A program made the position numbers and the translations under genes. DNA of 64,000 nt from Ferrovibrio sp. (lineage in GTDB: Bacteria > Pseudomonadota > Alphaproteobacteria > Ferrovibrionales > Ferrovibrionaceae), in assembly GCA_017991315.1 (NCBI GenBank), contig JAGOQS010000002.1:620001-684000 (forward strand). Direction: 5' to 3'. The stretch's first letter is position 1. The number at the start of each line of letters is the position of its first letter. Under the pieces are notes generated by a model. The model ran no database searches. It had not been told where the DNA came from and saw nothing but the letters and a program-made list of their open reading frames with translations. This document shows, piece by piece, positions 19,936-54,341 of the stretch.

Positions 19936-20445
19936 GACAGGCCCTCTCCACCCTGACGCATAACCGCCACGGCCATGGGGATCACGGGCCGGGCTGCGCG
20001 CCAATGCCCGCGTCTAACCCGATCCGACCAATATTTCCGTGGTTTAGCGATAGTGTACACGCTTCGACGGGTCCTCGGCAAAGGCGATCCCGGCTGGCCG
20101 GGATGGCGGCAATACGGATTGGTGACGCCTAACACTGTGCTTTGCCGGGCTTAAAAGAGCGTGAACAGTTAACCATGTCAGGTTGCCGGGCGATTACGGC
20201 AATTTCATGGTAATACAACTAAAAAGGTTATGGTTGCGGTACCACGAGCCGAGCATAACCAACGATATAGGAACGCGTGACTCGATATTAGCGATAATTA
20301 ACGCGTAACTCATTAAAATCAAAGATAAAATCCCCCTGAAAGATGCCAAAGGCATCCGGCAGGTGGGAAAATTATAAAATACAGTCTAGATTTGTTAAAT
20401 CTAGTCGCCCAAAGCCGGCATGCCTGACTCTTGAAGGAGAATATC
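19936..20445. other. 510-bp divergent intergenic region between leuA and the XRE gene
   Basis: This is the longest gap in the window and is AT-rich from about 20160. It holds several repeats: a 7-bp inverted repeat GGTTATG/CATAACC (20226-20260), a direct repeat AACGCGTRACTC (20272-20283 and 20300-20311), a small hairpin GATGCC-AAA-GGCATC (20342-20356), and the perfect inverted repeat listed separately at 20386-20404. On the minus strand a possible leuA promoter reads TTGCCG, 18 bp, TACACT (about 20052-20081). No ORF with recognisable coding character was found. Confidence 0.5.
20386..20404. promoter_or_regulatory. Perfect inverted repeat before the XRE gene (candidate autoregulatory operator)
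   Basis: CTAGATTT-GTT-AAATCTAG: two perfect 8-bp arms with a 3-bp spacer, ending 41 bp upstream of the XRE start codon. Position and symmetry suit a dimeric Cro/CI-type repressor acting on its own promoter. Binding is inferred. Confidence 0.5.
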
Positions 20446-20931
20446 GTGCCGACTACCACCGAGGGCAGCATCGCCGGTCGCTCCAAGGGCGCCAAGAGCC
20501 GCGGCCCCAACCAGTTCGATAGCCATGTCGGCCGCCGGCTGCGTGCCGCCCGCACCCTTGCCGGCATCAGCCAGACCCGGCTGGGCGAAGCGGTTGGCCT
20601 CACCTTCCAGCAGATCCAGAAATATGAGAAGGGCATGAACCGCATCGGCGCCAGCCGCTTGCAGCAATTCGCCCATATCCTGAATGTGCCGCCGTCCTAT
20701 TTCTTCGAAGGCCAGATGGATGAAGGCGCCGCGATTGCCGCCACCCCGGCTGTCGATGAGATCGATGCCGAGACTTCGGGCCGCGTATCGCAGCGCCAGG
20801 CCATGGAACTGGTGCGCTACTTCAGCCGCATCGACTCGAAAAGCCTGCGCCGCCATATCTTCGATCTGGTGAAGGCCGCCGGTGCACAGCCGGGCGAAGT
20901 CGCCGGCCCGTCGCTGGAAGAGATCGACTGA
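20446..20931 (+). CDS. XRE family helix-turn-helix regulator
   Basis: A 161-aa Cro/CI-type regulator. The HTH spans about residues 25-80 (VGRRLRAARTLAGISQTRLGEAVGLTFQQIQKYEKGMNRIG), followed by a helical C-terminal region. The start is taken as GTG at 20446, 5 bp after a strong AAGGAGA; the TTG at 20431 would place the start codon ahead of that site. The cyclase-like gene starts 42 bp downstream on the same strand, so the two are probably co-transcribed and this protein may control module A. Regulators of this shape are common in alphaproteobacteria and often have unrelated neighbours. Confidence 0.88.
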   Translation: MPTTTEGSIAGRSKGAKSRGPNQFDSHVGRRLRAARTLAGISQTRLGEAVGLTFQQIQKYEKGMNRIGASRLQQFAHILNVPPSYFFEGQMDEGAAIAATPAVDEIDAETSGRVSQRQAMELVRYFSRIDSKSLRRHIFDLVKAAGAQPGEVAGPSLEEID

Positions 20932-20973: not shown

Positions 20974-22077
20974 ATGCAAGGCGACGAACGCAGCGGCGAT
21001 AGCGCCGGCTATGGCGAAATCTACAATGTGCTGTTCGATCTGTGGCGCTTCGGCAGCAACGCCCTGGTCGGCTGGCGTCCCAGCCGTCTCGGCATCGAAG
21101 TCATCACCGTGCCCAAGGTGCGGCTGTTCTTTGCCGACACCGCCAATCCACGAATCTTCGCGGGCAGCCGCCAGATGGGCGGGCATACCTTCGACATGGT
21201 GGCGCAGGAACTGAATGTGCAGCCGATCGAGATCCGTCTTGATCAGGCCATCGGCACCGAGCCGGGCGAAGCGCATCCCGAGCGCGTCGATGAGCTTTTC
21301 GCGGCCTTCGCGGTAACGCTAACCCAGCACCGCGCCGTGCTGCTGATCGATATTGTCGGCTTCTCGCATCGCAGCCCGGCGGAACAGGCGGCCCAGCTCG
21401 CCACCCTGGAATTCGCCATCAATCTGGCTGAGGAAATAAGCCGCAAGCGCGGCCTCAAGGTGGAACTGGCCCGCACCACTACCGGCGACGGCTTCTATGT
21501 CTGGAACCGGCTCAAGGGCTTCACCGAGGATATCGATTTCTTCTGCTGCTTCGCGCTGTTCGTGATGATGTTCAAGACGCTGGAGCGCACTACGCGCGTG
21601 CCTGCGGCGATTCCGGAACTGCGGCTCTGCCTCGGCATCGGCAGCCATTTCCAGTATGGCCAGCCACGCGCCAATGGCGGCATGGCGGGTGAATTCATCG
21701 TCGGCAATGTCACCATAGAAATCGCCCGCCTGATCGGTGCGGCCAAGGCGGGGCAGATCCTGGTCGGCGATTTCCGCCGTCCAATCTCGGATGGCGGCAC
21801 GCTCTGCGGCACGGAAGTATTCCTCGCCGCCGTATCCGAGCGCATCAATGGCCTTGGCGAGTTGCGGCTGTTAAACATGCCAGTGGAACGCCTCGCCTTT
21901 TACCTGACCGGACAGCGTGCAGCCGACGGCAGCTATCCGCCACAGGCGATAACAGTGCTCGACAAGCATGGCTTCGAGCATCGCTGCTTCAACGCCAAGC
22001 TCAACGCACATCCGGTTGGTGCTGAACCGATCTTCGGCGGCCTGCAGCACACCGACATGATTCAAGCCCCAGACTGA
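20974..22077 (+). CDS. Class III nucleotidyl cyclase-like protein, copy A
   Basis: A 367-aa protein with an unrecognised N-terminal region (1-115), a class III cyclase homology domain (about 118-270), and a C-terminal region with DKHGFEHRCFNA (330-341). Cyclase-like motifs are LLIDIVGFS with the first metal Asp (D126), TTTGDGFYVW with the second (D172), and GNVTIEIARL, matching the canonical G-D-x-V-N-x-A-A-R segment and keeping Arg252. The transition-state Asn position appears to be Ile248, and the purine-selecting Lys before GD appears to be Ala. It is either a divergent cyclase or a catalytically dead sensor. It starts ATG at 20974 after GAGGT. A paralogue lies at 49392, and its stop is 3 bp from a convergent pentapeptide gene. 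Confidence 0.75.
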   Translation: MQGDERSGDSAGYGEIYNVLFDLWRFGSNALVGWRPSRLGIEVITVPKVRLFFADTANPRIFAGSRQMGGHTFDMVAQELNVQPIEIRLDQAIGTEPGEAHPERVDELFAAFAVTLTQHRAVLLIDIVGFSHRSPAEQAAQLATLEFAINLAEEISRKRGLKVELARTTTGDGFYVWNRLKGFTEDIDFFCCFALFVMMFKTLERTTRVPAAIPELRLCLGIGSHFQYGQPRANGGMAGEFIVGNVTIEIARLIGAAKAGQILVGDFRRPISDGGTLCGTEVFLAAVSERINGLGELRLLNMPVERLAFYLTGQRAADGSYPPQAITVLDKHGFEHRCFNAKLNAHPVGAEPIFGGLQHTDMIQAPD

Positions 22078-22080
22078 AGC

Positions 22081-23268
22081 CTAGGACTTCACGCAGGCAG
22101 ACAAGTCGAAGCCATCGAGTTCGGCCCGCACCAGATCGGCACCGGAGAAATTCGTTGCGAACTGCCGTCCGGTGAATTGCCCGGTGGGACTGTAGATCGG
22201 CACGCTGCCGCTTTGTGCACCCCGGAAATTCGACAGCCGCAACGTCGCGCCGGTGAAGTTGGTGCCACTAATATGCGCCTCGGTAAAATCGGCACCAATC
22301 AGCTTGGCATTTGAGAAGTTCGTCAGCTTCATCGAGGCTGCGGCAAAACGCGAGCCGCAAAGATCGGCACCGCTGAAATCCACCGCATCCAGCATCAGAC
22401 CGGAAAAGTTGAAGTAGCGCAGTTGCGCATCCTTCAGGATCAACCGGCGGCCCTGCTGGCCGCGCGTTTCCACCCAGTCGGTATGCAACAGCAATTCGCT
22501 TTTGAGGAACTCTGGAAAATCCTGCGGCTCGGTGAGCAGCGGCGGGCTGGCGGTGAGCTGCTCGATCGCCACGCCCTTGATCACCGCATTGGTGAATTCG
22601 GTGCCAAGACTGACCACGCCGCTGACCGTGGCATTGACGATCTGGGCGCCCGCCAGATTGGTGCCGATCAGCTTGGTGCCGATCAGTTTGGTATCGCCGA
22701 GATTGGCGCCGGAGAGATTGGCGTGCGACAGGTCGGCATTGCGCAGGTTGGTGCCGAAGAAATTCGCGCCCGAGAGATCGGCACCGATCATGCTGGCGCC
22801 GGAAAGATCGACGCCGGAAAACTCGGCACGCGATGCGTTGGCGAATTCCAGCAGGCAGTCGGTGAGGTCGGAGGTTTCAAGACCCGTGCGGCCGCCCTGC
22901 GCACCCATCATCACGCCACCGCGGAAATCGGCACCGCTGAGCTTGGCATGATTGAGGTTGGCGCCCTTGAGGTTGACACCGCGCAGGATCGCATTGGTCA
23001 GGTTGGCATGCTTGAGATCGGCTTGTTCAAGATTGGCGCCGAACAGATCGGCTTCCACCAGATCGGCCTTGGCCAGCCTGGCGCGCGTCAGATCCGAGCC
23101 GGAAAGTTTCGCCTTGGTGAGGACGCGGCCTTCGAAATTGGCGCCGATCAGACTCTTGCGGGTGAAGTCGATGACCTTGACCGTGGTCGGCGCGCGGGAG
23201 CGGAAGCGCTCCTCCATACGCACATCGAAGCCAGGGCCTTCAGGTGGGGTGCGGTCATCAAGCGGCAT
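22081..23268 (-). CDS. Pentapeptide-repeat protein, copy A
   Basis: A 395-aa protein made mostly of A(D/N)LxG-type pentapeptide repeats, expected to fold into a right-handed quadrilateral beta-helix. A first repeat block covers about residues 35-235. It is broken by about 50 residues holding the H-x2-W-V-x3-G-x2-G element (HTDWVETRGQQG), and a second block runs to the end. A similar element occurs in copy B and in other large pentapeptide proteins. The ATG at 23268 is used; the frame extends to a TTG at 23316. No signal peptide or membrane helix is seen. The function of this group is unknown; some pentapeptide proteins mimic DNA, but no gyrase-inhibitor signature is evident. Confidence 0.85.
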   Translation of the reverse strand: MPLDDRTPPEGPGFDVRMEERFRSRAPTTVKVIDFTRKSLIGANFEGRVLTKAKLSGSDLTRARLAKADLVEADLFGANLEQADLKHANLTNAILRGVNLKGANLNHAKLSGADFRGGVMMGAQGGRTGLETSDLTDCLLEFANASRAEFSGVDLSGASMIGADLSGANFFGTNLRNADLSHANLSGANLGDTKLIGTKLIGTNLAGAQIVNATVSGVVSLGTEFTNAVIKGVAIEQLTASPPLLTEPQDFPEFLKSELLLHTDWVETRGQQGRRLILKDAQLRYFNFSGLMLDAVDFSGADLCGSRFAAASMKLTNFSNAKLIGADFTEAHISGTNFTGATLRLSNFRGAQSGSVPIYSPTGQFTGRQFATNFSGADLVRAELDGFDLSACVKS

Positions 23269-49391: not shown

Positions 49392-50528
49392 ATGAGCGAC
49401 ATGGACGCCGTCCGACAGGGAATGCGGGAGATCGACTTTGTCCTGTATTCCTCCTGGCGCCTGGGCAAGCACATCCTTGCCGGCTGGAGCCATGAAAACA
49501 ATCAGATCTCCTTCGCCTTCTCCGCGCCCTACAATGTGCTGGGCAATGCGGAAGCCTATCCGCGTCTGATCCGTGGCCGCCGCCTGATGGGCGGCAAGAC
49601 TTTCGCCGAAACCTGCAAAGTGCTGGGCATCCGACCGCTGACCATGGACGTGCCGTTCAGCGTCGGTCAGGGCCGCAACGACGTGAACCCGGCGATGATC
49701 GAGAATTTGGTCAAGCGCTATGCCGTGGTTGAAACCGCCAACCGCGCCGTGATGCTGTTCGATATCGTCGGCTTCTCCAAGCATTCGCCGCTGGAGCAGG
49801 TGGCGCAGCTTTCGTCGCTGGAATACTCGATCAACTCCGCCAGCAAACGCCTCAACGAAGTCGGCCTGCGCAACGAACTGGCACGCTCCACCGTGGGCGA
49901 TGGTTTCTATGTCTGGAACCGCGCCAAGGGCGTTGAAGCGGATATGCGCACCTATATCGCGCTGATTCTGATCCTTGCCGATAACGCGCTGGCGCGGCGC
50001 AAGGGCAATCCGCGCCTGGTGCCGATCCTGCGTGCCGCCTTCACAGTCGGCCCGCATTTCTCCTACCACCAGGTAGAAGGCAACAATCCGCGCGGCTTCG
50101 AGTATATCGTTGGCGATGTGACCATCGGTCTGGCCCGCATCATCGGCAAGGCCCAGGCGCAGCAGGTGCTGATCGGGCAGTTCAACCGCTCGTCGGACCA
50201 GTTGGTGAACCAGAGCGAGATCGACACCATCCTGTTTCTTGCCCGCGCCGAAAAGCTGGTGCAGCCGCTGATCGGCCAGGAGCTGGGCGGTTACCGTATC
50301 ACCAATATCCGCGCCAGCGTCACGTCAGCAGTGGAAGTGCGCAACGGCGTCACGGTCTACCGTATCATGGACAAGCACGGCTTTTCGCACCAGGCCTTCA
50401 ATGCTCGTATCACCATCGACCGCGATGGCGCGGAATCGATCAGCCTTGGTCTGGGCACCACCGAACTCGGCGAGTTCGGCGCCGAGCCGACGCTTTACGA
50501 TGTGCGCCAGCTCTCGGGCCAGAAATAG
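49392..50528 (+). CDS. Class III nucleotidyl cyclase-like protein, copy B
   Basis: A 378-aa paralogue of the protein at 20974, with the same three-part layout. Shared blocks are GRRLMGGKTF (62-71), MLFDIVGFSKHSPLEQVAQL with metal Asp124, ELARSTVGDGFYVWNR with Asp170, EYIVGDVTIGLARIIG with Arg249, and DKHGFSHQAFNA (327-338). As in copy A, the Asn that would stabilise the transition state is Ile (245), so catalysis is uncertain. There are no membrane segments. Its stop touches the stop of the convergent pentapeptide gene with no base between. It might be read through from pgi, 65 bp upstream. Confidence 0.78.
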   Translation: MSDMDAVRQGMREIDFVLYSSWRLGKHILAGWSHENNQISFAFSAPYNVLGNAEAYPRLIRGRRLMGGKTFAETCKVLGIRPLTMDVPFSVGQGRNDVNPAMIENLVKRYAVVETANRAVMLFDIVGFSKHSPLEQVAQLSSLEYSINSASKRLNEVGLRNELARSTVGDGFYVWNRAKGVEADMRTYIALILILADNALARRKGNPRLVPILRAAFTVGPHFSYHQVEGNNPRGFEYIVGDVTIGLARIIGKAQAQQVLIGQFNRSSDQLVNQSEIDTILFLARAEKLVQPLIGQELGGYRITNIRASVTSAVEVRNGVTVYRIMDKHGFSHQAFNARITIDRDGAESISLGLGTTELGEFGAEPTLYDVRQLSGQK

Positions 50529-51776
50529 CTAGCGCACAAAGCCAATGGCATCGGTCAGGTCTGCTTCGGCAAGATCCGCCGTAGCGAGATCAGCTTCCGT
50601 CAGGTCGGCACCGCGCAGGTTGGCGCGGCTGAGCTTGGCGCCGCGCAGATCGCAGCGGCGCAGGTTGGCACCTTCCAGATTGGCGGGGAAATAGCGGTCG
50701 GCACCAACCACCAGCGCGCTGAGATTGGCATCGCGCAGATCGGCATGGGCCAACTTGGCGCCCTTCAGGCTGCTGCCACGCAGATCGGCGCCGGCCAGCT
50801 TGCTGTTCCGCAGATCGGCTTCCGCCAGCTTGGCACCCTGCAGCAGCGCGCCTTCCATGTTGAGGCCAAACAGCACGGCCTTGTTCGCCACCAGGCCGAC
50901 CAGCAGGGCCTTGTAGAGGCTGCCAAGCTTGCGCAGGTCATAGCCGCTGAAATCGGTCAGCTTGCCTTCCTTGCCGCCGCTCGTGACCCACAGACTATGC
51001 AGTCGCAGCGCCTCTTCCGGCGTCAGGCCGAGGTCTTCCAGCGGCTTGCCTGCCGGCTTGTCGGAAAGCAGGCCATCGGTGTTGGCGCCGGTGAGATCAG
51101 CCATCTGCATCTTGGCGCCGGTGATCACGGCATTGGTCAGTGCCGCGCCTTTCAGGCTGGCACCGGAAAGATCGGCGCCGGCCAGATTGGCGCCGGTGAG
51201 ATTGGCATTGGCCAGATTGGCGCGCACCAGGTTGGCGCCGATCATGATGGCATCGGTGAAATCGGTATGGGTCGCCACCGAACCGGTCATCTTCGCCGAG
51301 GTAAGGTTGGCACCGCGCATCTTGGCGCCATTCATTTCCGCCGGGCCGACATCGAAGCCGAGCGCATGAATGTTACCGTGGCGGTCACGTTCGGCGATCA
51401 TGCCATCGCGCAGGTCTGCGTCGAACAGATTGGCCCGGGTGAGATTGGCGCCATGCAGACAGGCGCCGCGCAGATCGGCCCGCACCAGGCTGGCGCCGGT
51501 TAAATCCGCCTCGCGCAGATCGGCGCCGAACAGCACCGCGCGGTCAAGATTGCAGTCCTGCAGTTTGGTGCCATACAGCACGCAACCGGTGAAATCGGCA
51601 TCGCTGAGATTGGCGCCAGACAGGATCAGATTGGAAAGATCGTGGAACGACAATATGGCGCGGCGACCGCCCATGATGCCGTTGCGGTAATTCTCATGCG
51701 CCTTGATTGCCTGCGCGATCTCGCTGTGGCTCAATTTCTTGCGGCTGCCACGCGATCCACCTGTGCCTTCGCTCAT
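50529..51776 (-). CDS. Pentapeptide-repeat protein, copy B
   Basis: A 415-aa protein with A(D/N)LxxA-type repeats over about residues 45-245 and 300-410, divided by a helical insert. The insert carries LHSLWVTSGGKEGKLTDF, similar to the HTDWVETRGQQG element of copy A. A related HENYRNGIMGGRRA element comes before the first repeats. The basic N-terminus (SRGSRKKLSHSEIAQAIKAHENY) shows no signal peptide. It starts with ATG at 51776, 37 bp after a 473-aa unknown gene, so it is likely the last gene of a three-gene operon. Confidence 0.85.
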   Translation of the reverse strand: MSEGTGGSRGSRKKLSHSEIAQAIKAHENYRNGIMGGRRAILSFHDLSNLILSGANLSDADFTGCVLYGTKLQDCNLDRAVLFGADLREADLTGASLVRADLRGACLHGANLTRANLFDADLRDGMIAERDRHGNIHALGFDVGPAEMNGAKMRGANLTSAKMTGSVATHTDFTDAIMIGANLVRANLANANLTGANLAGADLSGASLKGAALTNAVITGAKMQMADLTGANTDGLLSDKPAGKPLEDLGLTPEEALRLHSLWVTSGGKEGKLTDFSGYDLRKLGSLYKALLVGLVANKAVLFGLNMEGALLQGAKLAEADLRNSKLAGADLRGSSLKGAKLAHADLRDANLSALVVGADRYFPANLEGANLRRCDLRGAKLSRANLRGADLTEADLATADLAEADLTDAIGFVR

Positions 51777-51813: not shown

Positions 51814-53235
51814 TTATGCCTGCGGCATCCGTGCGATAGCGGCCATCCCGTCTTTCATCAGCTTGTTGGCATACTGGCTGCCGGCGACCAGTTCCAGCAT
51901 GCGCACCGCCGCAAACAGCTTGGTGCGCGCCGCTTCCGGGCCTTCCGCATTCAGCTTGCCCGCCTTGATATCGGCCAGCAGCGTGTTGCCGGTGCCATCG
52001 ATCTGGCTGGTAAGCTGCTTGATCGCGCCGTTGACATCCTTGTCGGCGCCGATCTCGGTCGCCACCCTGGCAACACGCTGCAGCGCATAGACGCGATTCT
52101 CGGCCTCGAGCTTGGCGTCGAACACCGCCTTCTTGGCATCCTCGCTGTTTTCTGCCGGCGGCAGCGACAGCACTGCATCAATGCCGCCCAGCACCTTCTC
52201 GTCGATGCCGCCGAGCACGCCGATGCGCACCATATCCTTGAGCTGACGGCTGGCCGCATCCATCTCGGGCTGCGGCCCCTCGGCCATGCCGTCCTTCTTC
52301 AGCCGGCCGATCAGCGACACGAAATCGCCCACCATGTCAGCCACCTTGGCATCGTCTACCTTTGAAGGATCGGTACGGGTGACGGCACCGAAAAAGCGCT
52401 TGGAATCGCCCGACAGCATGGCGCGGACATACTGGCCGGGCTTCATGCCTTCGATGCCGGTGGGCAATTCAGCCAGGGAGTCGAAAATCGGCAGCGCCTG
52501 GAAGCCATCGGTGAGGCGCGCCACGGTGATGGCAATCAGGCAGCCGGGCATGCCTTTGCCCGTGGTCGCCACATCGCTGTAGATCTGCTTGATCTCCTCC
52601 ACCTGCTCATCCAGCAGGCGGCCGACCGGCTTCGGCGACATCGCCTCACGCAGCTTTTCGGTTTCCGGCGCCAGTTCCAGCAGGCAGGTCATGTCGGTGA
52701 GGTCACCCAGCACGTTCTCACCCCCCAGCTTCTCCACCAGGGCGGCATGCTGGCCGGGATCGGCGGCAGCCTTGTTCAATTCCTCGCGCAGGCGCTGCGC
52801 CGCGACTTTCCAAAGCGTAGCACCCAGGCGCGGAATACGCGGATCGCTGCTGGACCCGATATCGGGGGCCGGCGCGGCGCGCAGCGAGGCTTCAAGCTGC
52901 TTCACGGCGGCGGCATCCAGGCTGGACAGCACGAATTCCCAGCAGGGCGCCAGCGACGAGCGAGCGATGCGGCCGAACGGCTTCACGCCGTCATCGCCCA
53001 TCACCAGCAGATCCTCAAACGGATGGCAGAACACGCGCTGCAGCGTGAGGTAACGCGGCGGCCGGGTTTTCACCAGACGCGGGCGCAGGGTGCCAAGCGC
53101 GGCATTGGCAACAGCGGCAGAGAGGACGATAGCGCGCGATCGCTCGATGAGCAGTGTGAGCTGCGCCACCTTCTCGTCGGGTATCTCGAACAGCTTGCGT
53201 TCGATATCCCGCAGTTCGGAAGCAAGATCGGTCAT
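51814..53235 (-). CDS. Hypothetical helical protein of module B (473 aa)
   Basis: I do not recognise this family. The protein is almost all helical, rich in Ala, Leu, Glu and Lys, with no membrane segment or signal peptide. A segment RVFCHPFEDLLVMGDDGVKPFGRIARSSLAPCWEF (about 68-102) looks conserved and domain-like, and the second half (about 250-470) seems to consist of repeated amphipathic helices. Start ATG 53235 overlaps the stop of the upstream 369-aa gene (ATGA), so the two proteins are translationally coupled and may form a complex. It is followed by the pentapeptide gene. Confidence 0.75.
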   Translation of the reverse strand: MTDLASELRDIERKLFEIPDEKVAQLTLLIERSRAIVLSAAVANAALGTLRPRLVKTRPPRYLTLQRVFCHPFEDLLVMGDDGVKPFGRIARSSLAPCWEFVLSSLDAAAVKQLEASLRAAPAPDIGSSSDPRIPRLGATLWKVAAQRLREELNKAAADPGQHAALVEKLGGENVLGDLTDMTCLLELAPETEKLREAMSPKPVGRLLDEQVEEIKQIYSDVATTGKGMPGCLIAITVARLTDGFQALPIFDSLAELPTGIEGMKPGQYVRAMLSGDSKRFFGAVTRTDPSKVDDAKVADMVGDFVSLIGRLKKDGMAEGPQPEMDAASRQLKDMVRIGVLGGIDEKVLGGIDAVLSLPPAENSEDAKKAVFDAKLEAENRVYALQRVARVATEIGADKDVNGAIKQLTSQIDGTGNTLLADIKAGKLNAEGPEAARTKLFAAVRMLELVAGSQYANKLMKDGMAAIARMPQA

Positions 53236-54341
53236 ACCTGCCTCCTTTTCGTGGATTCGACCCGTCGCAGCATTTCCATATCCAACGTGCCTGAATTCCA
53301 ACTCTCAAGCGCCCGCACCTGGAGCTTGGTGTTTTCCTGCATCGCCTGGGCATTCGGGCGGTTGGCCGCTTCCTTTTCCGGGATGATGGGCAGAATTCGA
53401 TAAATTTCCGTTATCGCCGCCCGCTGGGTATCCCGGTCCTTATCCTGCACATCCTGCCACAGCAGGATAACGTATTCCCAGCCATCAACCGTCCACCACA
53501 GCCGTTCCAGGTCCTTTTGGATCGAGCCGGAAATCTTCTCCCAGTTCATCAGCACCCGCTCGGGATGTTCCAGAGGGCGCATCGCGGAAGCAATGAGTTC
53601 CTTGGCATAATCGCCGGTAAACCCGCAAATCTTGCCAATCGGGCGAGCCAGTTCCGCGGCTTCCGACTTGTCCTCGGCAGACCATTTGGCCATGGCTTCC
53701 TCGAGCCCGGCGATGGCATTGACGATGCGGCGCAGGCGGCAATCCTTGCTCATGCCGGGCACGCCAAGCGGCGAGATCAGGTTGCCCCAGGATTCCAGCC
53801 GGTCGTAAAGCAGATTCGTCGTAGCCTGTAACCGCTGGGCGATGTCGCCCATGGCATGCTTCACCCGGTCTCGCCCGGAGTCGGACACGAAGTCGGAGAC
53901 GCGCAGATTCATCTGGCCGCCCGACATCTTCTCCAGCGCCCCCTTGAACAGGAAGAAGCGCGTCAGCAGCATCTCGTTTTCATCTTCCGCCAATGCTTCC
54001 TCGGCGGACTTCTGCGCTTCCGGGCCGGCGAGGCCTGATTTCGCCGCCTCCAGCGTGGCACTGCGCACATGTGGCGGCAGACAGGAATTGCGCTTCAGGA
54101 TCTCTTCATGCAGCGAACGATCATGCATCGTCAGCGAGAAGATTTCCGGCACATCCTTCCAGCGGATGACGTAATTGCCCTTCACACCGGAGAAGGCGGA
54201 GACCGTGAGTTCAAGCTGCTCGCGGCTATCCACGCGCACACGCGCCTGGCTGATGGCCGGCGTGGTGAAACTGACAGCGGTGCCACGCTCCTCGAATTTC
54301 GTCGGCTGAAACTGCGAGCCGGCGCCTTTTGGAAAATTCAT
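53232..54341 (-). CDS. Hypothetical protein of module B (369 aa)
   Basis: I do not recognise this family. The N-terminal 80 residues look beta-rich (ISQARVRVDSREQLELTVSAFSGVKGNYVIRWKDVPEIFSL); the rest is helical with many charged residues and a Trp-rich stretch near residue 285 (LERLWWTVDGWEYVILLW). It has no signal peptide or transmembrane helix. The ATG at 54341 follows AGGGG. It is the first gene of the apparent operon 369-aa, 473-aa, pentapeptide, with tight coupling to the second. Confidence 0.75.
   Translation of the reverse strand: MNFPKGAGSQFQPTKFEERGTAVSFTTPAISQARVRVDSREQLELTVSAFSGVKGNYVIRWKDVPEIFSLTMHDRSLHEEILKRNSCLPPHVRSATLEAAKSGLAGPEAQKSAEEALAEDENEMLLTRFFLFKGALEKMSGGQMNLRVSDFVSDSGRDRVKHAMGDIAQRLQATTNLLYDRLESWGNLISPLGVPGMSKDCRLRRIVNAIAGLEEAMAKWSAEDKSEAAELARPIGKICGFTGDYAKELIASAMRPLEHPERVLMNWEKISGSIQKDLERLWWTVDGWEYVILLWQDVQDKDRDTQRAAITEIYRILPIIPEKEAANRPNAQAMQENTKLQVRALESWNSGTLDMEMLRRVESTKRRQV

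Follow-up and report, generated by a model that had tools for sequence, protein, structure and literature searches.

Paired cyclase-like and pentapeptide-repeat genes in Ferrovibrio and other Alphaproteobacteria

Two gene pairs in the Ferrovibrio window

The window, i.e., the whole 64,000-nucleotide stretch of Ferrovibrio sp. DNA that was analyzed, contains two pairs of a cyclase-like gene (CYC) and a pentapeptide-repeat gene (PPR) that face each other on opposite strands. Their features, in window coordinates, are as follows.

20974..22077, + strand: CYC-A, a divergent class III nucleotidyl-cyclase-like protein of 367 aa (assigned from sequence, profile, predicted structure, and alignment), with an extra N-terminal region (residues ~1 to 113), a cyclase core (~114 to 265), and a C-terminal beta-rich region with the motif DKHGF..H..FNAK
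22078..22080, no strand: the 3 bp that separate the two facing stop codons in pair A
22081..23268, - strand: PPR-A, a pentapeptide-repeat protein of 395 aa (PF00805 match and model), with two beta-helices and a joining helix (residues 253 to 267) that bears HTDWVETRGQQG
49392..50528, + strand: CYC-B, the other copy of the cyclase-like protein, an ancient paralogue of 378 aa
50529..51776, - strand: PPR-B, the pentapeptide-repeat partner of CYC-B, 415 aa, whose stop codon abuts that of CYC-B

The first-pass annotation had described pair A as convergent, with stop codons 3 bp apart, and had placed a second convergent pair at 49392-51776; the coordinates agree with it on both counts. CYC-A ends with TGA at 22075-22077 and the stop codon of PPR-A occupies 22081-22083, which leaves exactly 3 bp. 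The open frame of PPR-A (annotated gene, 22081-23268, - strand) runs to 23316. In pair B, the stop codons directly abut, TAG being followed by CTA at 50526-50531 (gap of 0 bp). CYC-A (P0001) and CYC-B (P0002) shared 37% identity over 359 residues (E value, 6e-68), nearly their whole length, and PPR-A and PPR-B shared 29%.

Three flanking genes were considered as further members and rejected. A gene for an Xre-type regulator (window 20431-20931, + strand) runs in the same direction as CYC-A and stops 42 bp short of it; such a gene was found near CYC in just 4 of 84 loci and abutted it only here. Two genes with no assigned function come after PPR-B in window coordinates (window 51814-53301 and 53232-54341, - strand), and their order is kept only in Ferrovibrio, where they recur only in the B context.

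The window belongs to a metagenome-assembled genome of 2.38 Mb that is 73% complete (G000). This genome has just two CYC genes and nine PPR genes, yet each CYC gene lies directly beside a PPR gene, which is more than chance would give; none of the other seven PPR genes adjoins a CYC gene. Both pairs are also present in G061, a near-complete genome of this species.

Folds and active site of the two proteins

CYC had no family match in Pfam, NCBIfam, or PADLOC, and none to PF00211 above the cut-off; likewise, no cyclase model in Pfam or NCBIfam matched the scanned relatives, and the relatives run against PADLOC gave no hit. Its class III cyclase-like identity, proposed in the first-pass annotation, was supported by fold, with qualifications given below. 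In an AlphaFold model of CYC-A (pLDDT, 94; pTM, 0.91), the best 50 PDB matches listed were all class III cyclases (best E value, 9e-9). Profile comparison with canonical cyclase domains from related genomes (E value, 1e-5) lined up the DIVGF, GDGF, and VGDVTI..AR segments of CYC with the catalytic motifs of class III cyclases. The predicted structure is that of a class III nucleotidyl cyclase core to which further parts are added at both termini.

In class III cyclases, the purine-specifying residue pair is Lys-Asp for ATP and Glu-Cys for GTP. We assigned residue roles in CYC by motif position in a sequence alignment rather than in a superposed structure, taking them to be those established for class III enzymes. 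Across the 68 rows of this alignment, the metal-site residues Asp126 and Asp172 were kept in 67 and 68 rows, respectively, and the transition-state residue Arg252 in 67. The purine-specifying Lys was replaced by Ser/Thr and the purine-specifying Asp by Tyr/Phe (66 of 68 rows each), and the transition-state Asn was replaced by Ile (67 of 68). CYC resembles the class III cyclases (PF00211 catalytic domain) in its predicted fold, its two metal-binding Asp residues, and its transition-state Arg, but it lies below Pfam detection, has other residues in place of the base-specifying Lys-Asp pair and of the transition-state Asn, and carries added N-terminal (~113 aa) and C-terminal (DKHG) regions. Since Ser/Thr and Tyr/Phe stand in place of the purine-specifying pair, we do not file CYC as an adenylate or guanylate cyclase. 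Two motifs outside the core had been named as shared by the copies, and both fall within the CYC-A/CYC-B alignment. The C-terminal DKHG...N motif is near-invariant across the 68 rows, whereas the N-terminal MGG-x-TF is not family-wide (Met68 in 36 of 68 rows).

These replacements, present in essentially all relatives, together with the lack of a match to any curated cyclase family, would also suit a protein that makes no cyclic product and serves as a nucleotide sensor or protein scaffold, its state being read out or stabilized by PPR. We consider this less likely, though a serious rival, as both metal-binding Asp residues and the catalytic Arg are kept in 67 to 68 of 68 rows, as in active cyclases, and loss of the Asn alone is known in established cyclases (PMC4886424). 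The predicted mycobacterial cyclases of the DUF2652 family, which like CYC are divergent, soluble, class III cyclase-like proteins, have a conserved Ile in place of this Asn and keep the Arg (PMC4886424). They differ from CYC in keeping Lys-Glu or Glu-Lys base-specifying pairs (PMC4886424), and none of the 68 CYC members matched the DUF2652 Pfam family.

Both PPR proteins matched PF00805 (E values, 2e-60 and 4e-70) and have at least eight A(D/N)LXX repeats, with a quadrilateral beta-helix indicated by the model of PPR-A and its PDB matches. The PPR-A model (pLDDT, 90) consists of two right-handed beta-helices, the helix between them carrying the HxxW motif. Its PDB matches were mostly pentapeptide proteins (HetL, QnrB1, MfpA, AlbG, and designed relatives). 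PPR shares the beta-helix repeat fold of the gyrase-binding proteins MfpA, Qnr, and AlbG but differs from them in having two helices instead of one, a net charge near zero, and a linked cyclase-like gene; a net charge of ~0 does not suggest a DNA-mimic role of the gyrase type. HetL, a single beta-helix, directly binds and modulates the regulatory protein HetR, a transcription factor, whereas PPR has two helices and adjoins a cyclase-like gene (PMC7476756).

The H-x2-W-x4-G-x2-G insert had been noted as common to the paired PPR proteins, and it is. As a signature of pairing it fails: because six of the seven unpaired PPR proteins of the host genome carry the same HxxWxxxxGxxG element, it is a subfamily feature and no sign of pairing. 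No sequence feature specific to paired PPR proteins was found.

Adjacency and descent of the two families

We sampled 386 alphaproteobacterial genomes evenly and obtained 37 CYC genes in 29 genomes, 32 of them with a decidable neighbourhood. PPR was the immediate neighbour of 22 of these 32 genes (69%), compared with a chance expectation of ~0.6% per gene under the assumption of 12 PPR genes among 4,000. The first-pass annotation had named rarity of such neighbours in other genomes as a refutation of joint action, and this condition does not hold; what counts is adjacency and not convergence, 15 pairs being convergent and 7 tandem. As a control, we took the seven canonical class III cyclases listed for G005, a single-contig genome; PPR genes never came closer than 20 kb to them.

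A wider set of 84 CYC loci comprised the best 80 of 129 relatives in a genome-contig collection, the window, and one further genome. It contained 27 convergent pairs, 7 tandem pairs (PPR then CYC), and 1 divergent pair, i.e., an adjacent PPR at 35 of 72 decidable loci; 37 loci had no PPR neighbour, and 12 were undecidable owing to contig ends. The flanks of the 84 loci yielded no further PPR gene. The paired loci span roughly ten unrelated gene contexts, an approximate figure because a few links rest on shadow frames. At two loci (L050 and L087), where CYC is intact, the PPR partner consists of two open frames, through either gene breakage or assembly error.

The A and B types are separate, ancient lineages. 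In the CYC tree, CYC-A and CYC-B fell into two separate wider clades, both of which also contain further Rhodospirillales. The two types occur together in several genomes from outside the genus (L036 with L053, L034 with L057, and L039 with L064). A recent segmental duplication is rejected because the CYC copies are only 37% identical; the 29% identity of the PPR copies and the separate clades agree with this, as does the presence of both types outside the genus. The proposed comparison of the two trees for coevolution gave a mirror image: A-type and B-type partners formed separate clades in the PPR tree, with an inner order matching that of the CYC tree. Distance correlations were 0.97 within A and 0.96 within B, as coinheritance predicts. 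Agreement of this kind would be seen for any two genes passed on as neighbours.

Some Ferrovibrio genomes have lost PPR-B. In G001, it is absent, and CYC-B is intact and abuts the next gene. PPR-B was also not found in G003 and G007, which are incomplete genomes (83% and 87%). In G006, PPR-B survives ~24 kb from CYC-B together with a former neighbour (at least the counterpart of gene 53232-54341). More widely, PPR neighbours are missing from many CYC clades, and CYC is stable unpaired in about half of the wider loci. CYC has a role independent of an adjacent PPR: among 22 tested genomes with an unpaired CYC, 12 lacked any P0004-like PPR at the threshold applied, and the other 10 had such PPR genes elsewhere.

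Adjacency could also reflect linkage alone, if the two genes were ancestral neighbours that never acted jointly and were held together by abutting convergent 3' ends and overlapping transcripts that make rearrangement costly. Most convergent gaps, which measure between -20 and +42 bp, would be compatible with this, as would the conserved synteny of the B locus within Ferrovibrio and the cases in which PPR-B was lost or separated from CYC-B. However, adjacency outlasts changes of orientation and of surrounding genes, the tandem pairs are close or overlapping in an operon-like manner, and two CYC genes (L162 in G095 and L166 in G142) have a PPR gene on either side. On this evidence, we regard linkage without joint action as unlikely, though a serious rival.

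Possible joint function, and pentapeptide genes outside the pairs

The maintenance of this gene pair across many alphaproteobacteria points to an undescribed two-protein signaling or regulatory module. The strongest argument is that adjacency persists through changes of orientation and context. We favor, with a probability of about 0.5, a chromosomal module in which PPR binds a noncanonical cyclase and regulates or positions it. The earlier suggestion that the genes work together accordingly holds in part: a joint function is likely in the paired clades, given the 22 of 32 adjacent genes and the old, divergent copies, but it is not obligatory, because many clades have CYC without a PPR neighbour and some Ferrovibrio genomes have lost PPR-B.

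Under the favored reading, each locus would encode a physiological two-gene module. CYC would be a soluble enzyme with a divergent class III nucleotidyl-cyclase fold that keeps a two-metal, triphosphate-handling site, and because its base-reading pocket is changed, its nucleotide or its mode of action is probably unusual. PPR, a neutral and rigid double beta-helix, would most likely bind CYC or the target of CYC and may regulate or position it, as HetL does with HetR. Long ago, the module would have been duplicated to give types A and B, with CYC and its own PPR staying together in each. A bolder version is put forward only tentatively: the pair may be a new signaling module whose cyclase, a member of an uncatalogued class III subfamily, differs in base specificity or carries out another metal-nucleotide reaction and is controlled by a dedicated double-helix PPR or works through it.

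No description of a pentapeptide-cyclase pair was found in searches of open-access full text, a body that mostly excludes subscription papers and preprints; within it, the first-pass statement that no system of this composition is known holds. A review of VMAP-type conflict systems mentions both cyclase domains and pentapeptide repeats, but within multidomain architectures that are unrelated (PMC7159879). Nearly 39,000 pentapeptide-repeat proteins were counted in a 2021 review, with an explicit biochemical function for only two examples (PMC8145042). A conserved enzymatic partner would give one branch of this family a concrete, testable role. If the bolder version is right, PPR would be the first pentapeptide protein tied to nucleotide signaling, so far as the literature searched goes. 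The CYC family is itself an uncatalogued branch of the class III cyclases, and its pocket, altered yet conserved, could point to a novel cyclic nucleotide or to the fold being put to a new use.

A defence role is unlikely because there was no PADLOC match and no relatives were found in viral contigs, phages, or plasmids; nor does this record support a mobile element. The specific proposal of a Pycsar-like antiphage system, with CYC as a pyrimidine cyclase and PPR as its effector, is highly improbable: Pycsar PycC (PMC11224242) shares with CYC a class III fold, a non-purine-type pocket, and a two-gene layout with a noncanonical cyclase, and the structural matches of CYC-A include a uridylate cyclase (8jsz), but the Phe, Arg, and Gln of the cytidylate cyclase EaPycC (PMC11224242) are missing from the CYC pocket, where L124, T168, and T170 stand at the corresponding motif positions, the synteny in the genus is conserved and chromosomal, no toxic or membrane domain was found in PPR, and no cyclic-nucleotide-binding toxic effector of the PycTM or PycTIR type adjoins CYC, its neighbour being a pentapeptide protein only.

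Pentapeptide genes are also numerous in Ferrovibrio outside the pairs, with 10 to 14 matches to the two-helix protein per genome. One PPR paralogue of the host genome (L111:3634-4962; G000 C1, ~256.6 to 258.0 kb) has 54% identity to PPR-B, occurs across Ferrovibrio without a CYC neighbour, and nests inside the B-type partners in the PPR tree. Other PPR genes form tandem arrays of three to five, without CYC, at the following positions.

G004:C38:30031-35366: PPR tandem array
G005:C1:1118129-1124716: PPR tandem array
G001:C5:13450-20035: PPR tandem array
G002:C26:62836-66296: PPR tandem array
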